From: Acidobacteriota bacterium
Lineage (GTDB): Bacteria; Acidobacteriota; Terriglobia; Acidiferrales; UBA7541
DNA: 47,968 nt
Assembly: GCA_003224235.1 (NCBI GenBank)
Contig: QHYU01000148.1
Location: forward strand, 56,072-104,039
Direction: 5' to 3'
The notes below the pieces were generated by a model that was not told the origin of the DNA, made no database searches, and was given only the letters and a program-made list of their open reading frames with translations. Position numbers and translations under genes: made by a program. Of this stretch, positions 32,468 through 46,848 are shown one piece after another (the first letter of the stretch is position 1; each line of letters starts with the position of its first letter).

Positions 32468-32908
32468 ATGAAGAAGCAAACCAAATTCGTGGTGGGCGCG
32501 CTCATCATAATCGTCTCGCTGGGCTGGCTCGCATGGGTAGGCGCGAAAGAGAGCAAGACCTACTATCACACCATTGCGGAACTCTCCACGCCGAAGGGTG
32601 CCGAGGCGCGCCATCGCATGCGCGTGGGCGGCACGGTTCGCGCCGGCTCGATCGCGCGATACACCGGGCGGGTGGACTTCGTGATCGAAGGGGAAGGGAA
32701 GTCGCTCCCGGTCAGCTACACCGGAAGCGACCCGCTGCCCGATACATTTGTGGATAACAGCCAGGCCCTGGTCGAAGGAAGACTGGCGACGAACGGCACC
32801 TTCGTGGCCGACAAGGTTCAGGCCAAGTGCGCGTCGAAATATGAAGCGGCGCCGGGCCAGCAGAAAAAAGACTACGAAAACCCTGGGTACTCGAACAAAA
32901 AAAGCTAA
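32468..32908 (+). CDS. ccmE: cytochrome c maturation haem chaperone, Cys-type CcmE
   Basis: CcmE carries haem covalently in the periplasm from the CcmABCD exporter to the CcmF synthetase. The 146 residues have an N-terminal membrane anchor (about 7-25) and an OB-fold domain with RVGGTVRAGSI and VDFVIEG. The haem-binding position reads KCASKY (Cys121, Tyr125), a CxxxY motif instead of the classical HxxxY. Cys-type CcmE proteins are known from Desulfovibrio and archaea. AAGGGGAGAAATGCA precedes the ATG. It is the first gene of the ccm operon. Confidence 0.9.
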   Translation: MKKQTKFVVGALIIIVSLGWLAWVGAKESKTYYHTIAELSTPKGAEARHRMRVGGTVRAGSIARYTGRVDFVIEGEGKSLPVSYTGSDPLPDTFVDNSQALVEGRLATNGTFVADKVQAKCASKYEAAPGQQKKDYENPGYSNKKS

Positions 32909-32926
32909 ACCGCTCTTGAGGTGTTT

Positions 32927-34987
32927 GTGGACCTGTTTGGGTCATTCGCACTGCTTCTGGCTTTCGTCTGCGCCGTGTATGCCATCGGCGTAGGCATCGC
33001 CGCCATCCTTAGCCGCCGGCCGCTGCTGAACAAAAGCGCCCGGCAGGCCGGCATGGCCGTATGCGTCCTCATCACGCTGGCGATGGGTAGCTTGGTCTAC
33101 CTGTTCCTGACGGACAACTTCTCGTTAGCTTACGTCGTGGGGCACAGCAACCGCGATCTTCCTACCTTCTACAAATTCGCCGCGCTGTGGTCAGGTCAAG
33201 AAGGCTCGCTACTGTTTTGGAGCTGGCTGCTTTCGATCTATGTCTTCTCAGTTTTGTATTCCTATCGCGCTAAACACCCGGAGCTGATGCCTTACGTCGG
33301 CGTGGTGCTGGCGAGCGTGCAACTGTTCTTCCTCATCTTGAACGTCTTTATCGCCAGCCCGTTCAAAGTGCTGGGCGCGCTGGGCCCCGGCGGCGCGATG
33401 CAGGTGATTACGCAGGCCGACGGCAAGGGTTTGACGCCGCTGCTGCAATACCCCGAGATGGTAATTCACCCGCCCATGCTCTACTCGGGCTATACCGGCT
33501 TCACCATCCCATTCGCTTTCGCGCTGGCGGCGCTGCTGGGCCGCTATCCGGGTGAGAAGTGGATTCACGTAACGCGCAAGTGGACGATGATCGCCTGGTG
33601 CTTCCAGAGTGCTGGCATTTTGCTCGGCGCGCATTGGGCCTATGCCGTGCTCGGCTGGGGCGGCTACTGGGCTTGGGACCCGGTGGAAAATGCCTCGCTG
33701 ATGCCCTGGCTGACGGGCACCGCCTTCCTGCATTCGGTGATGATGCAGGAGAAGCGCGGGATGCTCCGAGTGTGGAACGTCTGGCTGGTCTTCTCTACGT
33801 TCTTGCTGTGCATCCTGGGCACCTTTCTCACGCGTAGCGGCGTGGTCAGCTCGGTGCACGCCTTCGCGCAGTCCAACATCGGACCCTGGTTCGTGGGGTT
33901 TCTCGGTTTGATTGTGGCCGTGTGCATTTTGGCATTTCTGAAAAATCGTGACTACCTGCGCAGCGATAACCAGCTCGATTCGATGGTATCGCGCGAGTCG
34001 AGCTTCCTGTTCAACAATCTGATCCTGCTGGTCGCCTGCGTCGCGGTACTCTCTGGCACGCTCTTCCCGGTGCTTTCCGAGTGGGTGCAGGGCACCAAGA
34101 TCAGCGTTGGCGCGCCCTTCTTCAACAAGGTCAACATTCCGATCGGGCTTTTTCTGCTGTTTTTGACTGGCGTGGGCCCGCTGTTGGCTTGGCGCAAGAC
34201 CTCGGCGGAAAGCCTGAGGCGAAATTTCGGCTGGTCGCTGTTAGGGGGTCTTGCTGCGGGTGCGATCGCGTACCCGCTGGGCTTCCGCGACTTCTACGCG
34301 CTGGTTTGCCTGATCCTCTCCGTCTTCGTTACCCTGACCATCGCCGCCGAATTCTTCCGCGGCGCCCGAGTGATTCGCGCGCGCGCGGGCCTCAATTTCT
34401 TCTCCGCCGTCGGACACCTCACCATGCGCAACACGCGCCGCTACGGCGGTTACGTCGTCCATTTTGGCATGGTGCTGATTTTCATCGGCCTGGCTGGCAC
34501 CGCATTCAACCAGGATAAACAGATGGAGATGGCCCCCGGTTCGAAGATGGAGATTGGCGCCTATACCCTGGTCTGCCAGACTTTCACCTCGCGTCCAGAG
34601 CAGAACTACACCGCAGAGCGCGCCACGATTGAAGCGCTCCGCAACGGCCAACAGGTGATGATGCTCTATCCCGAGCGGCGTTTCTATCCCGCCAACGAAC
34701 AGTCCGGCACGATGGTGGCCATCTACTCGACGCTCAAGGAAGACCTCTACGTTGTCTACGCCGGCCGCAGCCCGGAGACCCAGCAGCCGGTAATTCACGT
34801 CTATCTGAACCCCCTGGTGAAATGGATCTGGCTGGGCGGCGCGATTGTCGTACTCGGCACGATCCTGGCTCTGCTTCCCAACCGCCAGGCCGTCCTGGTA
34901 ATGCGCGCGGCGACACAGCCTGTTTCAGCGGCTCCCGCACCTCAACCCGTTAGTGCTACCCTACGGAGCTATGAAGGGCACGACTAA
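32927..34987 (+). CDS. ccmF: cytochrome c haem lyase subunit CcmF
   Basis: An inner-membrane protein of about 686 residues and some 15 membrane segments, which attaches haem from CcmE to apocytochrome c. The WWD motif is WGGYWAWDPVENASLMPWL (residues about 245-263). HPPMLYSGY and the RSGVVSSVHAFA loop supply conserved haem-ligand regions. GTG 32927 is preferred because TTGAGG lies five bases upstream; GTG 32921 is the alternative. The 3' end overlaps ccmH by 17 bases, so the two are coupled. Confidence 0.94.
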   Translation: MDLFGSFALLLAFVCAVYAIGVGIAAILSRRPLLNKSARQAGMAVCVLITLAMGSLVYLFLTDNFSLAYVVGHSNRDLPTFYKFAALWSGQEGSLLFWSWLLSIYVFSVLYSYRAKHPELMPYVGVVLASVQLFFLILNVFIASPFKVLGALGPGGAMQVITQADGKGLTPLLQYPEMVIHPPMLYSGYTGFTIPFAFALAALLGRYPGEKWIHVTRKWTMIAWCFQSAGILLGAHWAYAVLGWGGYWAWDPVENASLMPWLTGTAFLHSVMMQEKRGMLRVWNVWLVFSTFLLCILGTFLTRSGVVSSVHAFAQSNIGPWFVGFLGLIVAVCILAFLKNRDYLRSDNQLDSMVSRESSFLFNNLILLVACVAVLSGTLFPVLSEWVQGTKISVGAPFFNKVNIPIGLFLLFLTGVGPLLAWRKTSAESLRRNFGWSLLGGLAAGAIAYPLGFRDFYALVCLILSVFVTLTIAAEFFRGARVIRARAGLNFFSAVGHLTMRNTRRYGGYVVHFGMVLIFIGLAGTAFNQDKQMEMAPGSKMEIGAYTLVCQTFTSRPEQNYTAERATIEALRNGQQVMMLYPERRFYPANEQSGTMVAIYSTLKEDLYVVYAGRSPETQQPVIHVYLNPLVKWIWLGGAIVVLGTILALLPNRQAVLVMRAATQPVSAAPAPQPVSATLRSYEGHD

Positions 34988-35459
34988 ACTTCTGCCCCTG
35001 GCGCTGGTGGTCGTTTTGGCGCTGGCACTGAGCCATCTCGCGTGGCTACCCGCCTACGCCCAGCAGACCGAGCGTGCTAAAAACATCGGCAAGCGCCTGT
35101 TGTGCATGTGCAACTGCAATCAGATCCTCACTGCTTGCAACCATGTTGGCTGCTCGACGTCGGCCGCCATGCTGAAAAAACTCGACCAGGTTGTCGCCCG
35201 CAATGAACCCGAGGACCTCACCGTGCAGTCGTTCATTCAGGAGTGGGGCGAGCGGGTCCTGGCTGAACCGCCTGCCAAGGGCTTCAATCGGCTGGCCTGG
35301 TTTATTCCCGGTGGGGCCTTCGCGCTGGGCCTGGTGCTCGTTATCGTGGTCATCGCGCACTGGCGCCGTCGCATGACACTGGCTCCCGCAGGGCCCAGCG
35401 TCTCCCCAGATGCGCTTTCGCGGGCGCGCTTGCAGGCCGATCAGGAGACCGAGGAATAG
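34971..35459 (+). CDS. ccmH: cytochrome c maturation protein CcmH, variant Cys motif
   Basis: CcmH reduces the CxxCH thiols of apocytochromes in the periplasm. A signal or anchor segment (1-30) precedes the short CcmH domain, and a C-terminal membrane helix (about 107-127) follows. The active-site motif, classically LRCxxCQ, reads LLCMCNCNQ with Cys at 45, 47 and 49, plus Cys56 and Cys61 in TACNHVGC. So there are five Cys and no strict CxxC. ATG 34971 follows ACGGAG; it lies inside the end of ccmF. The next gene starts one base after the stop. Confidence 0.88.
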   Translation: MKGTTKLLPLALVVVLALALSHLAWLPAYAQQTERAKNIGKRLLCMCNCNQILTACNHVGCSTSAAMLKKLDQVVARNEPEDLTVQSFIQEWGERVLAEPPAKGFNRLAWFIPGGAFALGLVLVIVVIAHWRRRMTLAPAGPSVSPDALSRARLQADQETEE

Positions 35460-35460
35460 G

Positions 35461-35862
35461 ATGCTGGCTCGAGGCGAGATGCTCCTGGCTGCGATCGAGA
35501 CCTTTGCGGGCATCGATGTTGCCATGCTGCTGGCGTGCCTTGCGCTTTCGGCAGCAACAGTGGTATTCATTTTTCTCATTGAGGCCGACCCTGTTGATTC
35601 CGCGCCGCATCGCTCGCGCCTGGACCAGTTGCTTGAGCGCCGCGACACCATCTACGACAACCTGCGCGACCTGAAGTTCGAGCACCGCGCCGGAAAATTC
35701 TCCGAGCAGGATTATGAGGAGACTAAAAACGCGCTCGAAACTGAAGCCGCTCTCGTTCTGGCCGAAATAGAGAACGTTACCGGCGGCCAGGCCCGCCCGT
35801 CCCGGCGAGAGATACCCAACGCCGCGACGCGCCCTGCCGCTACGGAAAAATCACCTTCATGA
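35461..35862 (+). CDS. CcmI-like small membrane protein
   Basis: A 133-residue protein with one membrane helix (about residues 18-40) and a helical tail, RLDQLLERRDTIYDNLRDLKFEHRAGKFSEQDYEE... This resembles the membrane and coiled N-terminal part of CcmI, the apocytochrome chaperone, without the TPR domain. It starts one base after ccmH and ends in an ATGA overlap with the next gene, so all are one operon. The tail is echoed at the C-terminus of the next protein. Confidence 0.65.
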   Translation: MLARGEMLLAAIETFAGIDVAMLLACLALSAATVVFIFLIEADPVDSAPHRSRLDQLLERRDTIYDNLRDLKFEHRAGKFSEQDYEETKNALETEAALVLAEIENVTGGQARPSRREIPNAATRPAATEKSPS

Positions 35863-37112
35863 CCAAAAATTGTCTTCGCGTCGTCCTCGTAATGCTGTTA
35901 ACCCTTTCTGTAGCGGGTGTAGCCGAAGCCGGGACCGTGTCCGGTGTGGTGCGCAACGCCACTAACGGCTCAGTCGCCGCCGGCGTGGACGTCATCCTGA
36001 TTCAACTCCAGGCCGGCATGGAAACCGTCGCGAACACGAAAACGGACGCCCAGGGCCGCTACCAGCTGGAGCACGCGTCCATCGGCCTCCAGCCCATGCT
36101 CGTTCGCGTCAACTACCGCGGCGTTAATTTCCATCAGGCGCTGCCACCCGGCCGTAATATCGCCGACGTGGAAGTTTTCGAACAAACCACCAATGCCAGC
36201 GCGATGCAGGTAGCCTCGCGGGTAATTGTTCTGCAGCCGGAAGGCGCGCAATTGGTGGTCGGCGAGGAATACGCGGTGGAGAACCACTCAAAGCCTCCCA
36301 TGGCCCATTACAAGTCCGATGGCAATTTCGAGTTCCAGCTTCCGGAAGGCGGGGAGCTAAAGCAGGTGTCGGCCTGGGGCCCGGCCGGTATGCCCGTGGT
36401 GCAGGGAACGATCGAGAAAGGGGGACGCCACCAGGCGATCGCCTTCGCTTTCCGCCCGGGGAAGAACGGTGTACGACTCTCCTACCAAATGCCTTACGCC
36501 ACAAACCAGGCTACGCTCCACACCGCATTGCCCTACGCGGTTGGGCGCGTCCTGGTAGTGGTGCCGCCGACTTTGCAAGTGTCGAGTACGGGTTTCCAGC
36601 CTGCCGGGACCGAGCAGGGGTGGAATATCTATGCCCGCGACTCCGTTGCGGCTGGAACACCTCTAGATATTTCGGTGTCCGGCACCGCGCCGCCACCCTC
36701 GGCGTCCGGGGGACAGTCGCAGGGGCGCGAATCTGGGGGTCGCGAAGAAACCGTCCAAGTAATGCCGAACCGACTCGACGGCTTGAAGTGGGTGCTCGTG
36801 GGCGGCTTTGCCGCGCTGTTTTTCCTAGGCGCGGTCTTCCTGTGGCTCAGGCCAGCCGGCTCAACCAATAATCACCCGGAAGCGCCGCGAAGCTCGAACC
36901 GCAAGCGCGGCCGGTCGAAACAGTCCGAGACAGCAACGGTTTCCCGGTCGGGTCGAGAAGCGGAGACCCAGGCCAATCGCAGCCTGGAGGAGCTGAAGGA
37001 CACGCTGTTCGGACTCGAGTTGCGGCGTCAGGCTGGCACCATCTCCGAGGAAGACTACGCCCGGGAGCGTGGCCGCGCTGAAGGTAAGTTGCGCGAGCTC
37101 GTAAAGGGCTGA
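35859..37112 (+). CDS. membrane protein with carboxypeptidase-regulatory-like domain and CcmI-like tail
   Basis: A 417-residue protein that I cannot assign to a known maturation factor. A signal peptide ([19 protein letters not shown]) is followed by a carboxypeptidase-regulatory (Ig-like) domain ([13 protein letters not shown]... to about 100), a beta-rich periplasmic domain (100-280), a Gly/Ser linker and one membrane helix (about 310-330). The cytoplasmic tail ends [18 protein letters not shown]...SEEDY, which matches the tail of the preceding CcmI-like protein (L-x-x-x-x-D-T...AG-x-x-SE-x-DY). Its ATG overlaps the previous stop, and ccmA follows after ten bases, so a role in cytochrome maturation is likely by context. 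Confidence 0.7.
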
Positions 37113-37122
37113 GTCAAGCCTC

Positions 37123-37878
37123 GTGGCCACTGCGCTGCACCAACCACATCTCGGGATCGAATTCCATCAGATCGAAAAACGCTATGGCACGCTACTCGCT
37201 TTGCGGCAGATTTCTCTCAGCGTCTCCGCGGGCGAATTTGTCGCGCTGCTGGGGCACAACGGTTCGGGCAAAACCACTCTGCTGAGGGTGGCCGCGCTAC
37301 TGGTGAGGCCCAGTGCGGGGCGCGTGTCGTTTTCGGGTGTCGCCGAGGACACGGCGGCAATCAAACAGCGGATCGGCATGGTGGCGCACAACACGATGCT
37401 CTACGACGAGTTGTCCGCCGAGGAGAACCTCACGCTCTTCGCGCGGCTCCACGGTCTGGCGAATCCCGCCGCTCACGCCCGCCAAGCGCTCGAGCCCTCC
37501 GGCTTGGCCGCGCGCCGCAGTGACTTTGTGCGAACCTTTTCGCGCGGCATGCGCCAGCGCCTGGCCATTGCGCGGGCGCTGCTTGCTGCGCCTGGCCTGC
37601 TGCTGCTCGACGAACCCGCCGCGGGACTGGACCGCGAAGGCACCGATTGGTTGACTGAAACACTTCGTCGCCTCCGCGATTCCGGGTGCACGATCCTGAT
37701 GAGCACACACGGCCGCAGCGAAACCTTGTCGCTCGCCACCCGCGCGGTGCGCTTGGAAGCCGGAGTTCTGGTGCAGGACACGGGGGCGGGGAACAACCTG
37801 CGGCAAGTTCTGGAGGCTGCGGCGGGCTCCAGCCAGCCCCCTCGCGATGGGGCCAAGGAGGAGCCATGCCGAATCTGA
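37123..37878 (+). CDS. ccmA: haem exporter ATP-binding protein CcmA
   Basis: The ATPase of the CcmABCD complex, which loads or releases haem on CcmE. Of 251 residues, Walker A is [11 protein letters not shown], the ABC signature is [16 protein letters not shown], Walker B is [12 protein letters not shown], and the switch His lies in MSTHGR. The start is GTG 37123 with a weak ribosome-binding site. Its end overlaps ccmB by 13 bases. Confidence 0.92.
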
Positions 37879-38552
37879 CGCGTGCCGCCACAATCATTTT
37901 GGGAAAGGAACTCCGGACCGAGTTCCGCACGCGCGAGTTGCTCTCCACTACCATCGTCTTCGTCCTGATGGTGGTTGTGCTTTTCAGCTTCACATTCGAC
38001 CCCTCCGCCTCCGAATCGCGCCGCTTTGGTCCCGGTCTGCTCTGGATCGCCTTCCTGTTCGCCGGTTCGCTAATGCTCCATCCCTCGTTCATGCGCGAGC
38101 AGGCCAACGACACCCTTGCTGGGCTGCGTCTGGCTCCCATCGAACCGTTCGCCATCCTGACGGGCAAAATCCTGGCCAACTTCCTGTTCCTTCTCCTGGC
38201 GGAGCTTCTGCTGCTGCCAGTTTTTGCCGTGCTCTACGATGTGCGACTCACGCCGGTGCAGGGTCGCTTGTTACCGGTGATGTTGGTGCTGATCCTGGGC
38301 ACGCTCGGATTGACCACCGTCGGCACCGTGTTTTCGGCTGTCGCCTCGCAGGCGCGCATGCGCGAGCTGCTGCTGCCGCTGCTTCTGTTGCCGGTGCTGA
38401 CCCCGGTTCTGATCGCCAGCGCCGAAGCAACCTCCGGGCTGCTGGCCGATCCGCCCGAGCTGCCCCGCACCTGGCTTGCCTTTTTAGTCGCTTTCGACGT
38501 TGTCTTTTTGACTGCCACCTGGCTTTTCGGCGAATATTTACTCGAAGAATGA
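37866..38552 (+). CDS. ccmB: haem exporter permease CcmB
   Basis: A 228-residue inner-membrane subunit of CcmABCD with about six membrane helices. The N-terminus [21 protein letters not shown] and the [19 protein letters not shown] loop match CcmB. ATG 37866 sits within the last codons of ccmA, and the stop overlaps the first possible ccmC ATG. Order A-B-C-D is the classical one. Confidence 0.9.
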
Positions 38553-38563
38553 AAGAGGCAGGG

Positions 38564-39283
38564 ATGAAACCGAACTGGATGACTACGCTCATTGTTGCCG
38601 CGCTCATCGGGATCGCCGGCTACGCGGCGCTGTTCCTTGCGCCCACCGAGCGCACCATGGGCCTCATCCAGCGGATCTTTTATTTCCACGTGCCCAGCGC
38701 CTGGGCGGGTTTCGTCGCTTTCTTTATCACTTTTATCGCCAGCGTGGCCTACCTGCTGCGCCGGGCGCCGAAGTGGGACTGGTTGGCGGTGTCCTCGGCC
38801 GAAGTTGGCGTGGCCTTTTTCACGGTGGTCCTGGTGACTGGTCCCATCTGGGCTAAGCCGGTCTGGGGCATCTGGTGGACCTGGGATGCGCGACTGACTT
38901 CGACGTTTGTGCTCTGGGTGCTCTACCTCTCGTACCTGCTGTTGCGCACGCTGGTCGCGGACGCCGAGCGCCGGGCAGTGGTGTCAGCCGTGTTCGGCAT
39001 CTTTGCGTTTCTGGATGTGCCGCTGGTGTACATGTCCATCCGATGGTGGCGGACGCAGCACCCCCAGCCAGTAATTGCGGGCGGCAGCGGCTCGGGCCTG
39101 GACCCGCAGATGTGGCGCGTCTTCTTGACCTGCTGGGCGGCGCTGCTCGGAGTGTTGATCGTGATGCTGCGTCAGCGGTACCAGCTCGAGTCGTTGCGCC
39201 ACACCGTAGAAGAAATGACTGTCGAAGCAGAACGCCGCAACGCCGACCTCGAGCGGATACCGTCCACGCAGGCGGTGAGGTGA
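38564..39283 (+). CDS. ccmC: haem handling protein CcmC
   Basis: A 239-residue protein with six membrane helices that attaches haem to CcmE. The WWD motif is WGIWWTWDARLTS at about residues 102-114. Conserved His regions are FYFHVPSAW and the periplasmic RWWRTQHPQ. ATG 38564 is preferred because AGAGG lies five bases upstream; ATG 38549, in an ATGA overlap with ccmB, is the alternative. The C-terminal 40 residues form a charged cytoplasmic helix. Confidence 0.92.
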   Translation: MKPNWMTTLIVAALIGIAGYAALFLAPTERTMGLIQRIFYFHVPSAWAGFVAFFITFIASVAYLLRRAPKWDWLAVSSAEVGVAFFTVVLVTGPIWAKPVWGIWWTWDARLTSTFVLWVLYLSYLLLRTLVADAERRAVVSAVFGIFAFLDVPLVYMSIRWWRTQHPQPVIAGGSGSGLDPQMWRVFLTCWAALLGVLIVMLRQRYQLESLRHTVEEMTVEAERRNADLERIPSTQAVR

Positions 39284-39335: not shown

Positions 39336-39473
39336 ATGTTGAAGAATCTGGGTAGCGTGATGGCGGCGTATCTGCTTGTCTGGGGCATCTTTTTTGTCTA
39401 CGTGATTACCGTCGGGCGCCGCCTGGCTCGACTCCAGGCAGACGTGGATCGCCTGAAGCAAACGCTGAAGTGA
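39336..39473 (+). CDS. ccmD: small membrane protein CcmD
   Basis: A 45-residue protein with one membrane helix (about 8-28) followed by a charged helix (RRLARLQADVDRLKQTLK), the standard CcmD layout. GAGGAG lies six bases before the ATG. It follows ccmC directly. CcmD stabilises the CcmABC-CcmE complex. Confidence 0.85.
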   Translation: MLKNLGSVMAAYLLVWGIFFVYVITVGRRLARLQADVDRLKQTLK

Positions 39474-39662: not shown

Positions 39663-40736
39663 ATGAGTGACCGCAAGAGAGTCGGTGTGGTGTTGTTCCA
39701 ATTGGGCGGGCCTGACTCCCCCGCCGCTATTGAGCCATTTCTCTACAATTTGTTCTGCGATCCCGACATCATCCCGCTGGGCCCTCTGGGCGTCGTGCTG
39801 CGCAAGCCGCTGGCGTGGTACATCTCCAGCCGGCGGGTGAAGACCGTGTCCCACCATTATGACGAGATCGGCGGCCAGTCGCCGATACGCCTGCTGACGG
39901 AGCGCCAGGCGCGGAAGCTGGCCGCAGCGCTGCAGCCTCGTGTCGAGCCGCGCGTGGTCATCGCCATGCGCTACTGGCATCCCCTCACTACGGAAGCTGT
40001 GACCGCGCTCAACGGTTTGCCTCTGGACCAACTGGTCTTGCTGCCGCTTTATCCGCATTATTCGTTCGCCACCACGGGCAGCAGCTTGAAGGAATGGGAT
40101 CGCGTCTATCGGCCCGGCAGCAGGTCATTGCCGGTCACCATCATCCAGCAATTTTACGATCATCCTCTCTACATTGATGCGGTGGTGGAAAGGGTCGCGT
40201 GCAGCTTGACCCACTTCGAGCGTCCGGCCGACGTTCACCTCGTCTTCAGCGCCCATGGTTTGCCCCTGAGCCTGATCGAAAAGGGCGATCCCTACCAGCG
40301 GCAGGTGGAAGAAACGGTGCGCCTGGTGATGCAGCGCGGCGCGCAGGTGGCGTTTCGCCACCCCGAATTCCCGTCGCAAGCTGTCGGATCGCCGCGGGGA
40401 CGGCGGGGAGGCTGGCCCGCCGCGTTTACGCTGTGTTATCAGAGCAAGGTGGGCCGCGCGAAGTGGCTCGAGCCCTCGCTGACGGCAACACTCGAGGACT
40501 TGGCTCGCGGCGGCAAGAAGCACCTGCTCGTCATCCCGATCGCATTTGTCACCGAGCACATCGAAACCCTACATGAAATCAACATCGAAGCGCGCGAAGA
40601 GGTCGAAAAGCTCGGCGTCGAACAGTTCGAGATGATGCCCGCTGTAGGCGACTCCCCGCGGTTTATCGCCACGCTCGCTGATCTGGTTCTCCGCGCCGCC
40701 GGTGTCGAAGCGGCCGTCCCGACGCTTGTCAGATGA
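39663..40736 (+). CDS. hemH: ferrochelatase
   Basis: Inserts Fe(II) into a porphyrin, the last step of haem synthesis. The 357 residues start GVVLFQLGGPDSPAAIEPFLYNLFCDP. The catalytic His is in FSAHGLPLSL, and YQSKVGRAKWLEPS and VTEHIETLHEINIE are the later conserved blocks. Between about 235 and 255 a Gly/Arg-rich insert (GSPRGRRGGW) precedes the YQSKVG motif. ATG 39663 follows AGGAAG. It lies between the ccm operon and the bc-type operon, where haem is consumed. Confidence 0.93.
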   Translation: MSDRKRVGVVLFQLGGPDSPAAIEPFLYNLFCDPDIIPLGPLGVVLRKPLAWYISSRRVKTVSHHYDEIGGQSPIRLLTERQARKLAAALQPRVEPRVVIAMRYWHPLTTEAVTALNGLPLDQLVLLPLYPHYSFATTGSSLKEWDRVYRPGSRSLPVTIIQQFYDHPLYIDAVVERVACSLTHFERPADVHLVFSAHGLPLSLIEKGDPYQRQVEETVRLVMQRGAQVAFRHPEFPSQAVGSPRGRRGGWPAAFTLCYQSKVGRAKWLEPSLTATLEDLARGGKKHLLVIPIAFVTEHIETLHEINIEAREEVEKLGVEQFEMMPAVGDSPRFIATLADLVLRAAGVEAAVPTLVR

Positions 40737-40765
40737 GTTCTCGCGGGCGGCCCAGCCAAATCGGC

Positions 40766-40794
40766 TTGACACCGTCCAGCGCGTTGCATATAAA
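40766..40794 (+). promoter_or_regulatory. strong sigma70-type promoter of the Rieske/cytochrome b operon
   Basis: A perfect TTGACA (40766-40771), exactly 17 bases, then TATAAA (40789-40794, five of six). Transcription would begin near 40801, about 55 bases before the Rieske ATG. It is the best promoter in the window. Confidence 0.85.
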
Positions 40795-40855
40795 GGTCTG
40801 TACGGGCGTGGGCCTACCTTTCGCGATCCCATTCCAGAGGTAGTGCGCGCAATCT

Positions 40856-41452
40856 ATGTCGGAACACACGGAAACGAAGCCGCCTGAGACCGCTGCCCCG
40901 CCTGGCCCTGTTGCCACCGCGGGGCAAAAACCCGCAGCGAAGGTTCCCGCAGAGAGCAAAGCCGCCGTGGAACCCGATAAGATGCGGCGGCGCCTGATTT
41001 GGGCTTGCGTCTGGGGTTACCTGGGCGTCAATTTTCTGATGTTCTTGCGCTTTTTCTTTCCGCGGACCTTGTTTGAGCCTGAAACCGTCTTTTCCGTCGG
41101 ATACCCGTCTGATTTCAGCCTGGGTGTGGAGACTAAGTTCCAGAAGCAATACCGCATCTGGGTGGTGAAGGAACCGGACAAACTATTCGTCATCTACGCC
41201 CGCTGCACGCATCTGGGCTGCACGCCAGACTGGAAGGAGAGCGAAAACAAGTTCAAGTGCCCATGCCACGGCAGCGGTTACACCATGGAAGGGATCAACT
41301 TTGAGGGCCCTGCGCCGCGGCCGATGGACCGCAGCCACGTGGAACTGGACGCAACCGGCCAGATCATCGTGGATACGAGCCGCTTGTACGTCCGCGACCC
41401 GAGGGCCGGGCGCGACGAATTTGAAAACCCGGGTGCATTCTTGACTGTTTAA
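40856..41452 (+). CDS. Rieske [2Fe-2S] protein
   Basis: The high-potential iron-sulphur subunit of a quinol-oxidising bc-type complex. Of 198 residues, an Ala/Pro-rich N-terminal part and one membrane helix (about 46-66) lead to the periplasmic cluster domain. The cluster motifs are CTHLGC and CPCHGSGY, with two Cys and two His ligands; the two inner Cys can form the usual disulphide. The protein reads to a Phe/Thr-rich end without insertion. It opens the operon continued by the cytochrome b subunit 50 bases on. Confidence 0.93.
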   Translation: MSEHTETKPPETAAPPGPVATAGQKPAAKVPAESKAAVEPDKMRRRLIWACVWGYLGVNFLMFLRFFFPRTLFEPETVFSVGYPSDFSLGVETKFQKQYRIWVVKEPDKLFVIYARCTHLGCTPDWKESENKFKCPCHGSGYTMEGINFEGPAPRPMDRSHVELDATGQIIVDTSRLYVRDPRAGRDEFENPGAFLTV

Positions 41453-41502
41453 CCGCCGCAGGATCCGAGTACGGGGCTTGTTTGTAGCTGGGGGAGATTC
41501 GG

Positions 41503-42441
41503 ATGCCGAAAGAAAACGGGGGAAACAAGCGCACAGGCCTTCTTGAAAAAGTCCAGGAAGATGCCAAGGCGCTCAAGGAATTCTTCAGGGAAAAGGGCAA
41601 AGAGGAGCTGGAGGGCCTGAAGGAGCCCGAAAAGACACAGCTTTTCCGCTCCATCTTCCGCGTCAAACACGACGAGACCCCCCGCAACCGCGCGCTCAGC
41701 GTTCTGACAAACCTCTTCTTCCATCTCCATCCGGCCAAAATCAATCGCGACGCAGTGCGCTATAGCTACACCTGGGGCATGGGGGGTATCACTTTCTACC
41801 TGTTCGTCGTGCTCACCTTTACCGGTGTCCTGCTGATGTTCTATTACCACCCCACCAAGATCCAGGCGTTCCGGGACATTCTGTACCTGGAAAACGACGT
41901 CCCGTTCGGGAAACTGCTGCGTAACATGCACCGCTGGGCCGCGCACCTGATGATCATCGCCGTGTGGTTGCATATGTTTCGAGTCTTTCTCACCGGCTCG
42001 TACAAGCGGCCGCGAGAGTTTAACTGGTGCGTTGGCGTCATTCTGATGGTGCTCACTTTGCTGCTGTCGTTCACCGGCTACCTGCTGCCCGACGATCAGT
42101 TAGGCTTCTGGGCGGTGACCGTGGGTACGAACATGGCCCGCGCTACCCCGCTGCTGGGTCACGAGGGGCCGTTCGGGGCGCAGTTGGGTATGACACCTTA
42201 CAACGACGTGCGTTTCGCGTTGCTGGGTGGCTCGATCGTGGATGCCAATGCGCTGTTGCGCGCCTATATTTGGCACTGCATTGCTATCCCGCTGATCGCG
42301 GCGATCTTCATGGGAGTGCATTTCTGGCGCGTGCGCAAGGATGGCGGCATCTCTGGCCCCTCTCCGGTGATGCTGGAATCAGAGATCAAGGAGGAGAAGG
42401 GGCCGCGGCCGGTGATCCTGAGACCGAGCGGTATGCGATAG
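41503..42441 (+). CDS. cytochrome b6-like subunit
   Basis: A diheme cytochrome b core of 312 residues. A charged, coiled N-terminal extension of about 70 residues precedes four membrane helices. The haem ligands are visible: HRW...LHMFR with 14 residues between the pair in helix B, and WHC...GVHFW with 15 in helix D. The 15 spacing is that of b6-type proteins rather than mitochondrial cytochrome b. The C-terminus ends after the fourth helix (RKDGGISGP), so the quinol-site half is on a separate protein, as in b6f. GGGGGAGA precedes the ATG. Confidence 0.92.
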   Translation: MPKENGGNKRTGLLEKVQEDAKALKEFFREKGKEELEGLKEPEKTQLFRSIFRVKHDETPRNRALSVLTNLFFHLHPAKINRDAVRYSYTWGMGGITFYLFVVLTFTGVLLMFYYHPTKIQAFRDILYLENDVPFGKLLRNMHRWAAHLMIIAVWLHMFRVFLTGSYKRPREFNWCVGVILMVLTLLLSFTGYLLPDDQLGFWAVTVGTNMARATPLLGHEGPFGAQLGMTPYNDVRFALLGGSIVDANALLRAYIWHCIAIPLIAAIFMGVHFWRVRKDGGISGPSPVMLESEIKEEKGPRPVILRPSGMR

Positions 42442-42624
42442 CGGTGGCGCCCTTCGTGTAGCCCAAGGGTCTCACCGGCAAAGCGCTGCGGTTCGCTTTC
42501 CAGTTTTTTCTGTCAGGGGGGAGCCACGTCCAGAGAACTGGCTTCGTGGTGAAATCGTGAAGGGGGCGTTGGATTGGGGCACAACCTCTACCATCCTGCT
42601 TCCCTACCTTCAGGAGACTAAGCC

Positions 42625-43614
42625 ATGTGGGGGGATTGGCATCAGGTCTGGGAAATTGTCTCGCAGCCGGACAACGTGCCGATTGTGGCGCTGCTTTTTC
42701 TGGTGCCCTTTTACGTCTGGTACGCCTGCCGTCAAGCCTTTGCCACTGACCGGCTGATCGCGCAGCTCGAAACCGATCCGCAACTGGCCAAGACGCATCA
42801 CCGCAAGGTGTTCCCGTGGAAGGCTGGCTGGGACAGGGAGGTGCACGTCTGGCCGTACTTAATGCGCATCGAGTTTCTGGCGGCCATCATCGTCACCATT
42901 ATTCTGATGGTCTGGTCCATCACCTTGAATGCCCCACTGGAAGAGCCGGCCAACCCCAACCTGACGATGAACCCCGCTAAGGCTCCGTGGTATTTCCTCG
43001 GGTTGCAGGAAATGCTGGTCTATTTCGACCCCTGGATCGCCGGCGTGGTCATGCCGACGCTGATCATCATCGGCCTGATGGTCATCCCCTACGTCGATGC
43101 CAATCCCTTGGGCAACGGGTATTACACCTACAGGCAGCGGCGCTTTGCCATTTGGACCTTCCTGTTTGGCTTTCTCTTCTTGTGGGTGATAATGATCGTG
43201 ATCGGCACGTTTATCCGCGGCCCGGGCTGGATGTGGTTCTGGCCGACGCAGACTTGGGACCACAACCGTCTGGAGTTTGCGGTGAACCGGAACCTGGACC
43301 AAATCGTCGGGATTGACGGCTCCTGGCTGGCCCATCTGCTGCCGCAAACGCTGAAAGCGTCATCCCCCATCATCGCGCGCGCGATCTTCGGTATCTTTCC
43401 CCTCGTGCTTTACGTCATTCTCGCCGCGTATCTGATTCACCTGATTTGTAACCTCACTGCATTCAGTCGAAAGATTTACAAGCGTATGACCCTGTTGCAA
43501 ATCGTGACTGTGCAGGTGTTGCTGGTCCTGATGCTGAGCCTGCCGGTGAAAATCCTGCTGCGGTTGCTTTTCCGGATCAAGTACATATGGGTGACCCCAT
43601 GGTTCAGCATCTGA
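42625..43614 (+). CDS. cytochrome b subunit IV-like protein with extension
   Basis: The second half of the split cytochrome b, 329 residues. After an N-terminal membrane helix (about 18-36) comes the subunit IV core, NPNLTMNPAKAPWYFLGLQE, then MPTLIIIGLMVIPYVD. The quinol-site PEWY motif reads APWY. About 170 further residues, with more membrane helices (IWTFLFGFLFLWVIMIVIG, FGIFPLVLYVILAAYLIHL), exceed subunit IV (about 160). AGGAGA lies before the ATG. A 183-base gap without features separates it from the b6-like gene. Confidence 0.88.
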   Translation: MWGDWHQVWEIVSQPDNVPIVALLFLVPFYVWYACRQAFATDRLIAQLETDPQLAKTHHRKVFPWKAGWDREVHVWPYLMRIEFLAAIIVTIILMVWSITLNAPLEEPANPNLTMNPAKAPWYFLGLQEMLVYFDPWIAGVVMPTLIIIGLMVIPYVDANPLGNGYYTYRQRRFAIWTFLFGFLFLWVIMIVIGTFIRGPGWMWFWPTQTWDHNRLEFAVNRNLDQIVGIDGSWLAHLLPQTLKASSPIIARAIFGIFPLVLYVILAAYLIHLICNLTAFSRKIYKRMTLLQIVTVQVLLVLMLSLPVKILLRLLFRIKYIWVTPWFSI

Positions 43615-43647
43615 GCACCCCCGAAGTCCTGCGCAAGGAGGATCTGG

Positions 43648-46600
43648 GTGCCTGAGACCCATTCCGACGACCCCATTCAGAGCAGGTCTTTCACTGTTCC
43701 CCTCCTGGTCTCTGTGTTTCTGCTGTTGCTGACCGTCGCGTGGTCGCTCTATGATGAGTTCTACGGCCTGCGCCCGTGGCGCTCCTACCAGCACGAATTT
43801 GCCAAGGTCTACGCGCAATACCTCAACAACCAAATCCCGCGGCAACAAAACCGGGAAAAGCTGATCCGGGAATCAGCCGAGTACAAGAAGCTGGACGAGC
43901 AGGTCAGGGCAGCCGAGGAAGCAGCCAGGCCTCGCCTCCGGGAGATTGGGAAAGAGTCCGATTACATTGATCGCCGTCTGGCAGCGCTGACCGACAGATT
44001 CCAGGAGGCCCGTGGAAAGGTCACCGCACTGGTTTACACCATGGAACTCTATCCGGTCGGTACGAACTCCCGGAAGAGCAAATTTGCGGAAGTCGAGCAA
44101 GCCAAGAAAGAAATCTATGCCGTGGAGCTGCCTACCCCCGACGGCAGGGTGGAAACCAAGAAGTTCGTTTATGATCAGCTCGAGGCTGAATTCAACAACC
44201 TGAAAGCGCGCAAGGCGCAACTGGTGGCCGAGCAGGGCGAAGTCTTGCGTCCCCCCAAAGAGCTGCGCGAACAGCGGGACAATTACTTCAAGGAGAAGAT
44301 GGAGGGCCTGACCGCAGACCAGCTCAAGGGCCTCTTGAACGCCGCCGAGCATCTGGACATATCCATCCGGCAGATCAACGTCAATCCGACCGATCCCGGC
44401 ATTAACAACTTCGGTTCCGGAGGATTGGTAGATCGCTGCCAGTCCTGCCACCTGGGGACGGATCCCAAGCTCGTTCCGCTAGCGATGACGCTGATCAAGG
44501 CGGACCTCGGTCTGGCGAAGAGCAAGGACGCGCCCTTCGCGAGCCATCCCGAGACTGAACTCCTCAAGATCCACACCACCGAGAAATTCGGCTGCTCACC
44601 ATGTCATGGCGGCAACGGCCGCGCCCTGGACAGCGTGCGAAGGGCCCACGGCCGGTATGAGCATTGGCTTTGGCCCCTCTACTACGCGGAAAACTACCAG
44701 GCCGGCTGCCAACAGTGCCACGCGGCCGATATGTTGACCGAGCACGCGCCGGTGCTCAACCGCGGCAAGGATCTCTATCGCAGCCGGGGATGCATCGGCT
44801 GCCACAAATTCGAAGGCTTCGATGACCAAAGCGAACAAATCCTAGCTTCGCGGCAGGCTATCCGACAGCTTGAGCAGGAGAAAAAGGACGACGAGCTCGA
44901 AATTCCGCGCCTTAACAAGGCCGCGGACGCCGCCCCTGACAACGAAACGGCACGGAAACTCAACGCGCGTGCGACCAACCTGACCGTCACGATCAGTAAT
45001 ATCGACGCGCGGATTGAGCAACTCGAACAGAAGACGCGCAGCCTGTTCCGCGAAGAGAAGAAGGTCGGCCCCAGCCTGAAAGAAGTCCGCATGAAGCTCC
45101 TCAAGGAATGGATCCCCTACTGGCTGGGCCACACGCACGAGTTTCGCCCGGCCACCAAGATGCCCCAGTTCCGCCTGGAACAGGACCAGATCCAGGCCAT
45201 CGCCGCTTTCATCTGGCAGTCGGGTGTCCCGGGCCCCGCGCTCGCCAAGCAGCCGCCAGGCGATGCGGGCCGCGGCAAACAATTGTTTGAGGCGCGCGGC
45301 TGCATGGCCTGCCACGCCGTGGGCGAAGGATCCAACGTCATCGGCGGCGACTTTGCCGCCAACCTCAGCCACGTCGGTGAAAAAGCCGGCTACGATTATC
45401 TGGTGCGCTGGGTGCACAACCCGCGCGAGCGGACACGCCCCTTTTGCCCGTTCGAGAAGCGCGACCTGGGCCCCGAGGACTACGCCAAACACGGCCTGGC
45501 TTACGTCTTCGATCTCGAGCATTCACGCTGCCCGAACGATGGCCACGAGCTGCAGGTGCAGCAACCGACGGTGATGCCTAGCCTGCGGCTCACCTGGGAG
45601 GAGGCGCGCGATATCGCGAGCTACCTCATTACCTTGAAGCGAAAGGACGCCTCCTACGAACTGGCCCCTGACCTGGACGACCCGAGACTCAAGGAGCGCG
45701 GCCGCGCGCTGGTGAAGAACTACGGCTGTGCCGGATGCCACGAGATCTCCGGTCTCGAGGATGAGCCCCGACTTGGCACTGAGCTGACCACCGAGGGCAG
45801 CAAGCCCATCGAGCGCCTGGATTTCGCCCGGCTGACCGAGGACGCCAAACGCGGTGTCCTTCCCGACGGGAAGGAATCTCCCCGCGGCCCTTGGTACGAT
45901 CAAAAGGGGTTCTTCGAGCAGAAGCTGGCCAGCCCGGCTGTCTATGACAAGGACAAGTACAAGCCGGACCCACTCGACCGGCTGAAGATGCCCAAACCCA
46001 ACGTCACCGCGGACGATATCAACGCACTGACGACCTTTCTGTTGGGAAGCGTAGATCCGCAGTTACCGCAGGATTATATGTACAAGCCCGGCGATGCACG
46101 CCACGACGTCCAGGCGGGCTGGTGGATCGTTACCAAATATAACTGCATGGGCTGTCACCAGGTGCATATCGGACAGCAATCCGTGCTGCAAAACCTGCCG
46201 CAATATCAGGGCGACAACAAGATCAAGCTCCCACCGCCGTTGATCCCCGAAGGCGCGCGGGTCGATCCCAACTGGCTCGCGCACTTCCTTGACAATCCGG
46301 CGATGAGCAAGACGGACCTGAACCGCAACGGCGTGCGCTCGTATCTCGAGGTGCGCATGCCCACTTTCAGCTTCTCCGACGATGAAATCCAGAAGCTGGT
46401 GCGCTTCTTCGCCGCAGCCAGTTCGCAGGCGCAGCCTTATCTACCGCCCAAGCTTGAGCCGCTGACCGACACCGAACGCACCGTAGCGCGGCAGCTCTTC
46501 ACCAGCCCGGCGGCACCATGCTTGAAGTGCCACGCCACCGGCGACCCGGCGCACGACAAAGACGCCACGGCGCCGAACTTCCTGCTTGCGCGCGAGCGGC

Positions 46601-46848
46601 TGAAGCCTGCCTGGACGCTCCGCTGGATCCTCGATCCGGCCCGCATTGTCCCCGGCACGGCCATGCCCTCCGGCCTTTTCCGCAAGGAAGGGGATCACTG
46701 GATCTTTAGCGGGCCGCTGCCGCCGAGTGTCCAGGGCTACGCAAAGGACCACGCGGATCTGCTGGTCCGGTATATGTTCCAGTTGACGCCCGAGGAGCAA
46801 CTCATGCTGACGGGCCGCACCGCCGCCACGGCCGGGTCGGGCGAGTAG
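43648..46848 (+). CDS. octahaem cytochrome c of the bc-type complex
   Basis: A 1066-residue membrane-anchored protein with eight CxxCH haem-binding motifs, at about residues 264, 316, 354, 382, 552, 694, 833 and 958. One membrane helix (about 13-32) anchors it; the rest is periplasmic. Two charged coiled regions flank the first haem cluster, at about 45-215 and 390-475. Met-ligand-like segments such as ATKMPQF, VRMPTFSF and GTAMPSG follow individual haem domains. It takes the place of cytochrome c1 in this operon. GTG 43648 follows AAGGAGG. Maturation would need the ccm genes just upstream. Confidence 0.9.
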   Translation: MPETHSDDPIQSRSFTVPLLVSVFLLLLTVAWSLYDEFYGLRPWRSYQHEFAKVYAQYLNNQIPRQQNREKLIRESAEYKKLDEQVRAAEEAARPRLREIGKESDYIDRRLAALTDRFQEARGKVTALVYTMELYPVGTNSRKSKFAEVEQAKKEIYAVELPTPDGRVETKKFVYDQLEAEFNNLKARKAQLVAEQGEVLRPPKELREQRDNYFKEKMEGLTADQLKGLLNAAEHLDISIRQINVNPTDPGINNFGSGGLVDRCQSCHLGTDPKLVPLAMTLIKADLGLAKSKDAPFASHPETELLKIHTTEKFGCSPCHGGNGRALDSVRRAHGRYEHWLWPLYYAENYQAGCQQCHAADMLTEHAPVLNRGKDLYRSRGCIGCHKFEGFDDQSEQILASRQAIRQLEQEKKDDELEIPRLNKAADAAPDNETARKLNARATNLTVTISNIDARIEQLEQKTRSLFREEKKVGPSLKEVRMKLLKEWIPYWLGHTHEFRPATKMPQFRLEQDQIQAIAAFIWQSGVPGPALAKQPPGDAGRGKQLFEARGCMACHAVGEGSNVIGGDFAANLSHVGEKAGYDYLVRWVHNPRERTRPFCPFEKRDLGPEDYAKHGLAYVFDLEHSRCPNDGHELQVQQPTVMPSLRLTWEEARDIASYLITLKRKDASYELAPDLDDPRLKERGRALVKNYGCAGCHEISGLEDEPRLGTELTTEGSKPIERLDFARLTEDAKRGVLPDGKESPRGPWYDQKGFFEQKLASPAVYDKDKYKPDPLDRLKMPKPNVTADDINALTTFLLGSVDPQLPQDYMYKPGDARHDVQAGWWIVTKYNCMGCHQVHIGQQSVLQNLPQYQGDNKIKLPPPLIPEGARVDPNWLAHFLDNPAMSKTDLNRNGVRSYLEVRMPTFSFSDDEIQKLVRFFAAASSQAQPYLPPKLEPLTDTERTVARQLFTSPAAPCLKCHATGDPAHDKDATAPNFLLARERLKPAWTLRWILDPARIVPGTAMPSGLFRKEGDHWIFSGPLPPSVQGYAKDHADLLVRYMFQLTPEEQLMLTGRTAATAGSGE

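Follow-up and report, generated by a model that had tools for sequence, protein, structure and literature searches.

Acidobacteria appear to carry a two-gene CcmI substitute, a tiny membrane anchor with a beta-rich periplasmic partner

Introduction

CcmI delivers unfinished cytochromes c to the machinery that attaches heme. Its TPR domain is thought to recognise apocytochromes in System I cytochrome c maturation, and many organisms lack a CcmI TPR domain. The ccm operon described here raises the question of what serves apocytochromes at the heme lyase CcmF in its place. Between ccmH and ccmA, it holds two genes for membrane proteins of 133 and 417 residues, referred to below as nub and big. 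An earlier note, made from the letters of the DNA, had proposed a split or rebuilt apocytochrome chaperone replacing the TPR part of CcmI. The window, that is, the whole stretch of 47,968 nucleotides that was analysed (G000:C141:56072-104039), comes from a genome of 4.57 Mb that is 99% complete.

Results and discussion

Gene order and type of the operon

The operon runs along the forward strand in the order ccmE-ccmF-ccmH-nub-big-ccmA-ccmB-ccmC, followed by a small CcmD-like ORF. Its genes other than nub and big are:

32468..32908, + strand: CcmE, System I* type by its motif (Pfam CcmE, 1.3e-23; all 37 homologues have the heme motif CASKY or CASRY)
32921..34987, + strand: CcmF, heme lyase (TIGR00353, 1.7e-135; CcmF_C, 2.4e-67)
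34971..35459, + strand: CcmH (Pfam CcmH, 1e-13; start taken at the first ATG)
37123..37878, + strand: CcmA (TIGR01189, above cut-off)
37866..38552, + strand: CcmB (Pfam CcmB, 2.2e-33)
38549..39283, + strand: CcmC (TIGR01191, 4.4e-38)
39336..39473, + strand: small TM protein of 45 aa, CcmD-like (by position and size; ORF read in frame)

Nub and big are complete ORFs that share 4 bases; a single base separates ccmH from nub, and 10 bases lie between big and the start of ccmA. Overlaps and gaps of so few bases suggest that ccmH, nub, big and ccmA form one transcription unit. The flanking genes score as CcmE, CcmF and CcmH on one side and as CcmA, CcmB and CcmC on the other, which confirms the earlier placement of both genes inside the operon between ccmH and ccmA. 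No ccmG was seen in Pfam and NCBIfam scans of the operon genes.

Since this CcmE carries CASKY, with Cys in place of His in the heme motif, the operon can be assigned to the System I* type. Section 8 of PMC3601427 describes a Cys-type CcmE heme chaperone as the mark of System I*, and CcmI in such systems as enhancing, not absolutely required.

Two side observations concern neighbouring genes. The CcmH at 34971-35459 carries a Cys-rich motif, LCMCNCNQILTACNHVGC; the usual CcmH motif is LRCxxCQ. A pattern search found a similar CxCxCNQ form in 7 of 46 homologues, and the other 39 fit neither of the two Cys patterns tried. Directly 3' of the ccm genes, positions 39663-46848 hold genes that resemble, by sequence, ferrochelatase, Rieske and (two of them) cytochrome b proteins, as well as a 1066-aa protein with eight CXXCH motifs that is a probable client of the ccm system.

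Nub as a probable N-terminal module of CcmI

The features assigned to nub are as follows:

35461..35862, + strand: nub, 133 aa, candidate stand-alone CcmI N-module (profile match to CcmI, 87.8%; TIGR03142 at 15.2 bits, E 0.02, against a cut-off of 29.3)
35515..35580, + strand: nub transmembrane helix, spanning about residues 19-40 within the predicted helix 3-39 (pLDDT 92-94; membrane extent judged by eye)
35617..35778, + strand: nub predicted cytoplasmic helical hairpin, residues 53-106, YDNLRDLxFExRAGKxSExDY (structure model; invariant residues in 41 sequences)

In the structure model, helix 3-39, which holds the TM segment, is followed by hairpin helices at residues 53-76 and 82-106, and the C-terminal end has no predicted structure. 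Seven residues (L57, N67, D70, L71, E74, K79 and D84) are invariant in 41 homologues. The best NCBIfam match of nub, under its cut-off, is TIGR03142, the CcmI family, which is also the most frequent NCBIfam match among the homologues (18 of 41 at E<=0.05). The CcmI alignment spans the TM segment and hairpin of nub over 81 columns; the second TM and the periplasmic TPR domain are both missing from this single-TM protein. Nub adjoins ccmH and so occupies the usual slot of CcmI, because proteobacterial plasmid loci, which hold CcmF-DsbE-CcmH-CcmI in whole or in part, place CcmI after CcmH. Judged from its sequence, nub is probably a stand-alone N-terminal membrane/cytoplasmic module of CcmI.

Among 247 genomes of the phylum, TIGR03142 matched 35, seven of them over the cut-off. 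Four of these are full-domain canonical CcmI (G127, G082, G164, G242), and three are short nub-type ORFs (G115, G075, G152). Canonical CcmI in the phylum follows operons ordered A-B-C-E-F-H (L165, L166, L169; L167 is cut). In the genome studied here, the same profile gave three weak places, none over the cut-off, with nub second and C219 third (12.6 bits); no canonical TPR-type CcmI was detected by this search. The best place, G000:C145, was rejected as CcmI, as it lies inside an amidase ORF, presumably an N-acetylmuramoyl-L-alanine amidase. A sequence search of solved structures gave no meaningful match for nub or for big, and Foldseek with the nub model returned nothing at E<=0.001, the matches being generic hairpins.

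In several distant nubs, a zinc ribbon is added at the cytoplasmic C-terminus (Zn_Ribbon_1 in 8 of 41 homologues; loci L061, L062, L065, L066, L068, L071, L072 and L074).

Domain structure of big

The following features were assigned to big:

35859..37112, + strand: big, 417-aa type I membrane protein (ORF, structure model)
35859..35930, + strand: signal peptide, residues 1-24, cleavage AEA/G (sequence; helix 3-18 modelled; cleavage site by eye)
35931..36176, + strand: CarboxypepD_reg-like (transthyretin-like) domain, residues 25-106 (PF13620, 6.6e-7; 3e8v, Z 12.4)
36195..36683, + strand: second beta domain, residues 113-275, with the predicted fold of the M1-aminopeptidase N-domain and Ost1 (ribophorin I) (VIA-align, Foldseek)
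36774..36848, + strand: transmembrane helix, residues 306-330 (model; K/R versus D/E count)
36933..37106, + strand: predicted cytoplasmic hairpin tail, residues 359-416, AGTISEEDY (pLDDT >90 over most of it; profile matches)

The model of big has a mean pLDDT of 87, with the second beta domain at residues 116-275, a disordered linker between it and TM 306-330, and tail helices at residues 359-391 and 397-416. For the topology, 7 K/R against 2 D/E were counted C-terminal to the TM helix. A periplasmic carboxypeptidase-regulatory-like and beta domain had been read from the sequence earlier, and both the model and PF13620 bear this out. PF13620 scores 30.0 bits on big, just under its gathering score of 32.3, and at E<=0.05 it matches all but one of the 45 homologues; in structure alignment of the model, residues 25-108 match PDB entry 3e8v with Z 12.4 over 80 residues. 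Residues 113-275 align with the N-domain of M1 aminopeptidases and Ost1 (VIA-align of the model, Z ~12, rmsd 3.5, ~150 residues), with a Foldseek E value of ~1e-6. The periplasmic part is predicted to be all beta, the TPR domain is missing, and residue 275 is followed by the linker, TM and hairpin, with no M1 catalytic zinc domain. A shared fold of big is no proof of function.

Across 45 sequences of big, the best Cys column reaches 9% and the best His column 60%, at position 92; most of the conserved positions are structural G, P, F, Y and N. This bears on the alternative that big takes the place of CcmG or acts as a redox or heme-carrying component, for which the operon would leave room, as no ccmG was seen in it and System I* functions without CcmG in Desulfovibrio according to section 8 of PMC3601427. 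No Cys is conserved and no His fully conserved, however, and no thioredoxin fold appears among the fold matches listed. The lack of a conserved Cys led us to reject a redox or heme-ligand role and largely refutes this alternative as a whole, to which we give very little credence.

This genome has two similar extra copies of big, both without the tail, at L054 (G000:C83) and L055 (G000:C115:1-1243). The L055 copy has its start cut, overlaps CcmF near a contig end and may be degraded or misassembled.

A hairpin possibly shared by nub, big and CcmI

An exact AG-x-x-SE-x-DY is found in nub (residues 77-85) and big (392-400) and in no other of the 448 ORFs of 60 codons or more in the window. A gap-free alignment of the two tails scores 22.7 bits by BLASTP (E 0.004), and their Smith-Waterman score was equalled or beaten by 4 of 2000 shuffles. 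The earlier note had described a shared helix pair with the pattern D-T...AG-x-x-SE-x-DY. The AG motif and the hairpins are indeed present in both proteins; the D-T element falls out of register, lying 13 residues before AG in nub and 9 in big.

The tails were compared with CcmI by profile-profile alignment with hhalign, and similarity was found for both. The CcmI N-module (15 sequences) matched nub at 87.8% with a score of 39.6 (maximum of 60 column shuffles, 18.0), in a run with eight family tails in the set; as a control, 42 windows of other ccm-operon alignments reached at most 7.7%. It matched the pooled big tails at 87.0% (score 34.7; maximum of 100 shuffles, 15.0) and the big tails of this family alone at 67.5% (28.2; 22.8). 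Nub, in turn, matched the pooled big tails at 95.9% (51.3; maximum of 100 shuffles, 18.4) and those of this family at 81.9% (32.9; 22.1), and the weakest pair was this family's nub with this family's big tails, at 45.9%. The final family-tail set comprised 33 of 37 sequences, four cut, frame-shifted or gapped ones being left out. At the level of these profiles, the link between the tails of big and nub is firm with all tails pooled.

The link of nub to CcmI reads as firmer than that of big, because single-sequence scans of big homologues at E<=0.05 favour GvpG (23 of 45) and SHOCT (13 of 45) for the tail; TIGR03142 matches 1 of 45, and reaches 7.9e-4 on the tail of big in G169. When 31 genomes were searched with SHOCT, two of the six places returned were big tails (G004, G018), and SHOCT (PF09851, cut-off 27 bits) left the big of this genome unmatched at E<=10. 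Such counts, together with the sub-cut-off CcmI score of this genome's nub, would suit an alternative in which the hairpins are unrelated to CcmI, being generic SHOCT/GvpG-like elements of independent origin that came to resemble it by convergence. In the case of nub, this is countered by the frequency of TIGR03142 among its homologues, the long alignment over TM and hairpin, its genomic slot and the absence of SHOCT among the best 25 of the 29 Pfam families matched by nub homologues. We consider convergence improbable as an account of both proteins; for the tail of big alone, it may hold.

The big tail is absent in the same-order families f2 and f3 and in several other lineages (tail-less big at L060-L062, L065, L067, L069, L070, L072 and L073), so that any pairing through it would not be universal.

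Distribution and synteny

Gene order was examined in 58 fetched loci, a set that counts one contig twice (L004 = L075) and also contains L056, fetched for another reason. The complete order E-F-H-nub-big-A-B-C is present in 30, H-nub-big-A in 41 and adjacent nub and big in 47. The 11 loci without this adjacency comprise four CcmF-big pairs, one lone big, L056 and five others. Big precedes A with no nub seen in L057 and L094, both at contig ends, and in L067 and L092, where A-B-C follows big and none of F, H and nub was seen ahead of it (L092 is near the contig start); L074 has nub and, by tblastn, no big. Another 40 loci were picked by hand, not at random, from phylum-wide matches. The nub model matched 37 of them, namely 34 stand-alone nubs, two canonical CcmI and one kinase. 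A big body was detectable in 21 of the 34 stand-alone-nub loci and in none of the other 13, from which it follows that nub alone can suffice in some loci.

Co-occurrence with ccm genes holds for both proteins. Of the 247 phylum genomes, 111 have a detected nub, 160 a CcmF and 108 both. The three nub matches without CcmF (G078, G102 and G285) are all from family f16, and the one inspected, L195, is a kinase-like false positive. Far from occurring mainly outside ccm operons, big lies within 1 kb of nub at 39 of its 50 strong places; among the remaining 11 are the two paralogue places of this genome and four fetched genomes whose big is on a different contig from F-H-nub or 0.1 to 1.3 Mb away from it (L213-L216). 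Lone copies of big, at L213-L216 and L218, are what a passenger gene unrelated to cytochrome maturation would produce. Synteny refutes this for the main copy of big, given its adjacency to nub and a position kept in loci well beyond this class, and we attach next to no probability to it. The architecture of the pair and its ccm linkage are well supported.

The unit F-H-nub-big is found without E, A, B or C at L058, L059, L164, L224, L225 and L226, and CcmF-big pairs without nub at L049, L050, L051 and L055, with the tail present in L049-L051 and absent in this genome's copy. L067 and L092, in which big precedes A-B-C, count against this; on balance, the loci favour big belonging with the heme-ligation half of the machine.

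As to the loci themselves, L049, L050, L051 and L055 hold a second CcmF and a second big, and nub, CcmH and A-B-C are all missing from them; in L051, a 523-aa ORF with 16 CXXCH motifs beside the pair recalls a dedicated NrfE-like lyase. In several lineages, CcmF and CcmH are fused in one ORF of ~820-950 codons, as at L156-L160, L162, L168, L188-L191 and L194. All searched genomes were from Acidobacteriota. A contig scan with big returned one relative, the nearest contig being a groundwater Acidobacteria MAG, and a plasmid collection gave no match for big or for a distant nub.

A proposed role for nub and big

We favour, with roughly even confidence, the reading that nub and big are a split, rebuilt CcmI of the acidobacterial System I* operon, in which a beta platform and not a TPR domain serves the apocytochrome at CcmF. 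Nub would keep the part of CcmI in and under the membrane, namely the TM with its N-terminus outside and the cytoplasmic hairpin, and would most likely help to hold the CcmF-CcmH heme lyase together, as is thought for Rhodobacter CcmI-1. The C-terminal hairpin of big, on the same cytoplasmic side, would most likely pack with nub and/or CcmF, and the beta platform (CarboxypepD_reg-like plus M1/Ost1-type) would thereby be placed beside the heme-attachment site. There it may take over from the missing TPR domain in holding the apocytochrome. We infer both the complex and hairpin pairing of nub, big and CcmF and the binding of apocytochrome by big.

The chaperone proposed earlier thus survives in part. 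In its favour are the match of the tails to the CcmI N-module, the linkage of nub with ccm genes and a periplasmic part that is not TPR; against it, the tail is a short hairpin of a common type, some big proteins lack it, and the 13 loci mentioned above have nub and no detectable big. The more specific proposal, an apocytochrome c chaperone without TPR, formed by an Ost1/M1-type beta platform and tethered to the heme lyase by a CcmI-derived hairpin used twice, in nub and in big, is put forward tentatively, as a possibility of lesser weight. It would amount to an independent way of presenting unfolded cytochromes to CcmF.

A different role for big has to be weighed here. Nub could be a true CcmI remnant and big an assembly/stability factor of CcmFH or an envelope-link factor, never contacting the apocytochrome and using its hairpin for oligomerisation. 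Big is built of CarboxypepD_reg and M1-N folds, which are generic interaction modules, its conserved residues are mostly structural, and its 45 sequences have no conserved Cys or strongly conserved His, all of which suits such a factor. The presence of big with CcmF alone in four paralogous loci fits a substrate-specific role equally well, and we regard an assembly factor as rather unlikely.

If the split, rebuilt CcmI is correct, a phylum-wide substitute of different fold would mean that substrate delivery to CcmF was re-invented. The lyase-assembly (membrane) and substrate-handling (periplasmic) roles of CcmI would then be divided between two separately deletable genes.

Comparison with known systems

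With System I* of Desulfovibrio and archaea, the acidobacterial operon shares a CcmE with C-x-x-x-Y, and no ccmG was seen in it. It differs in having CcmH and the nub-big pair; the passages of PMC3601427 on System I* describe no such pair, and archaea have neither CcmH nor CcmI according to PMC9084895. Searches of the open-access literature found nothing on a nub-big pair or on a CarboxypepD_reg-like protein with ccmF, and for CcmI in Acidobacteria the titles and abstracts were of community surveys.

NrfG of NrfEFG is, as proposed for big, a dedicated lyase partner, and the paralogous pairs of CcmF and big are reminiscent of a second, dedicated lyase; unlike big, NrfG is a TPR protein. The predicted fold of residues 113-275 is that of the M1 aminopeptidase N-domain, with big lacking the catalytic domain. 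Ost1/ribophorin I resembles big as a single-pass protein with an M1-N-like beta domain (fold Z ~12) and as accessory to an enzyme in the membrane by which translocated polypeptides are modified, an analogy drawn from fold and topology. Ost1 has two similar luminal beta domains, however, serves a different enzyme and has no detected sequence similarity to big. In the review PMC7226087, the folds of Ost1 and related subunits are described as not chaperone-like, which weighs against the reading favoured here, and Ost1 as restraining the glycosylated peptide.

The closest comparison is with CcmI/CycH, represented in Rhodobacter capsulatus by CcmI-1 and CcmI-2. Its architecture is outlined in PMC3884852, and the magnetosome study PMC7676999 summarises Rhodobacter work as linking CcmI-1 to heme ligation and CcmI-2 to a separate function. 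Nub has in common with it the slot after ccmH and an N-out TM followed by a cytoplasmic hairpin. The acidobacterial arrangement differs from CcmI in using two genes, in lacking the second TM and the TPR domain, in having a beta-rich periplasmic part and in carrying, in big, the TM and hairpin at the C-terminal end of that part.
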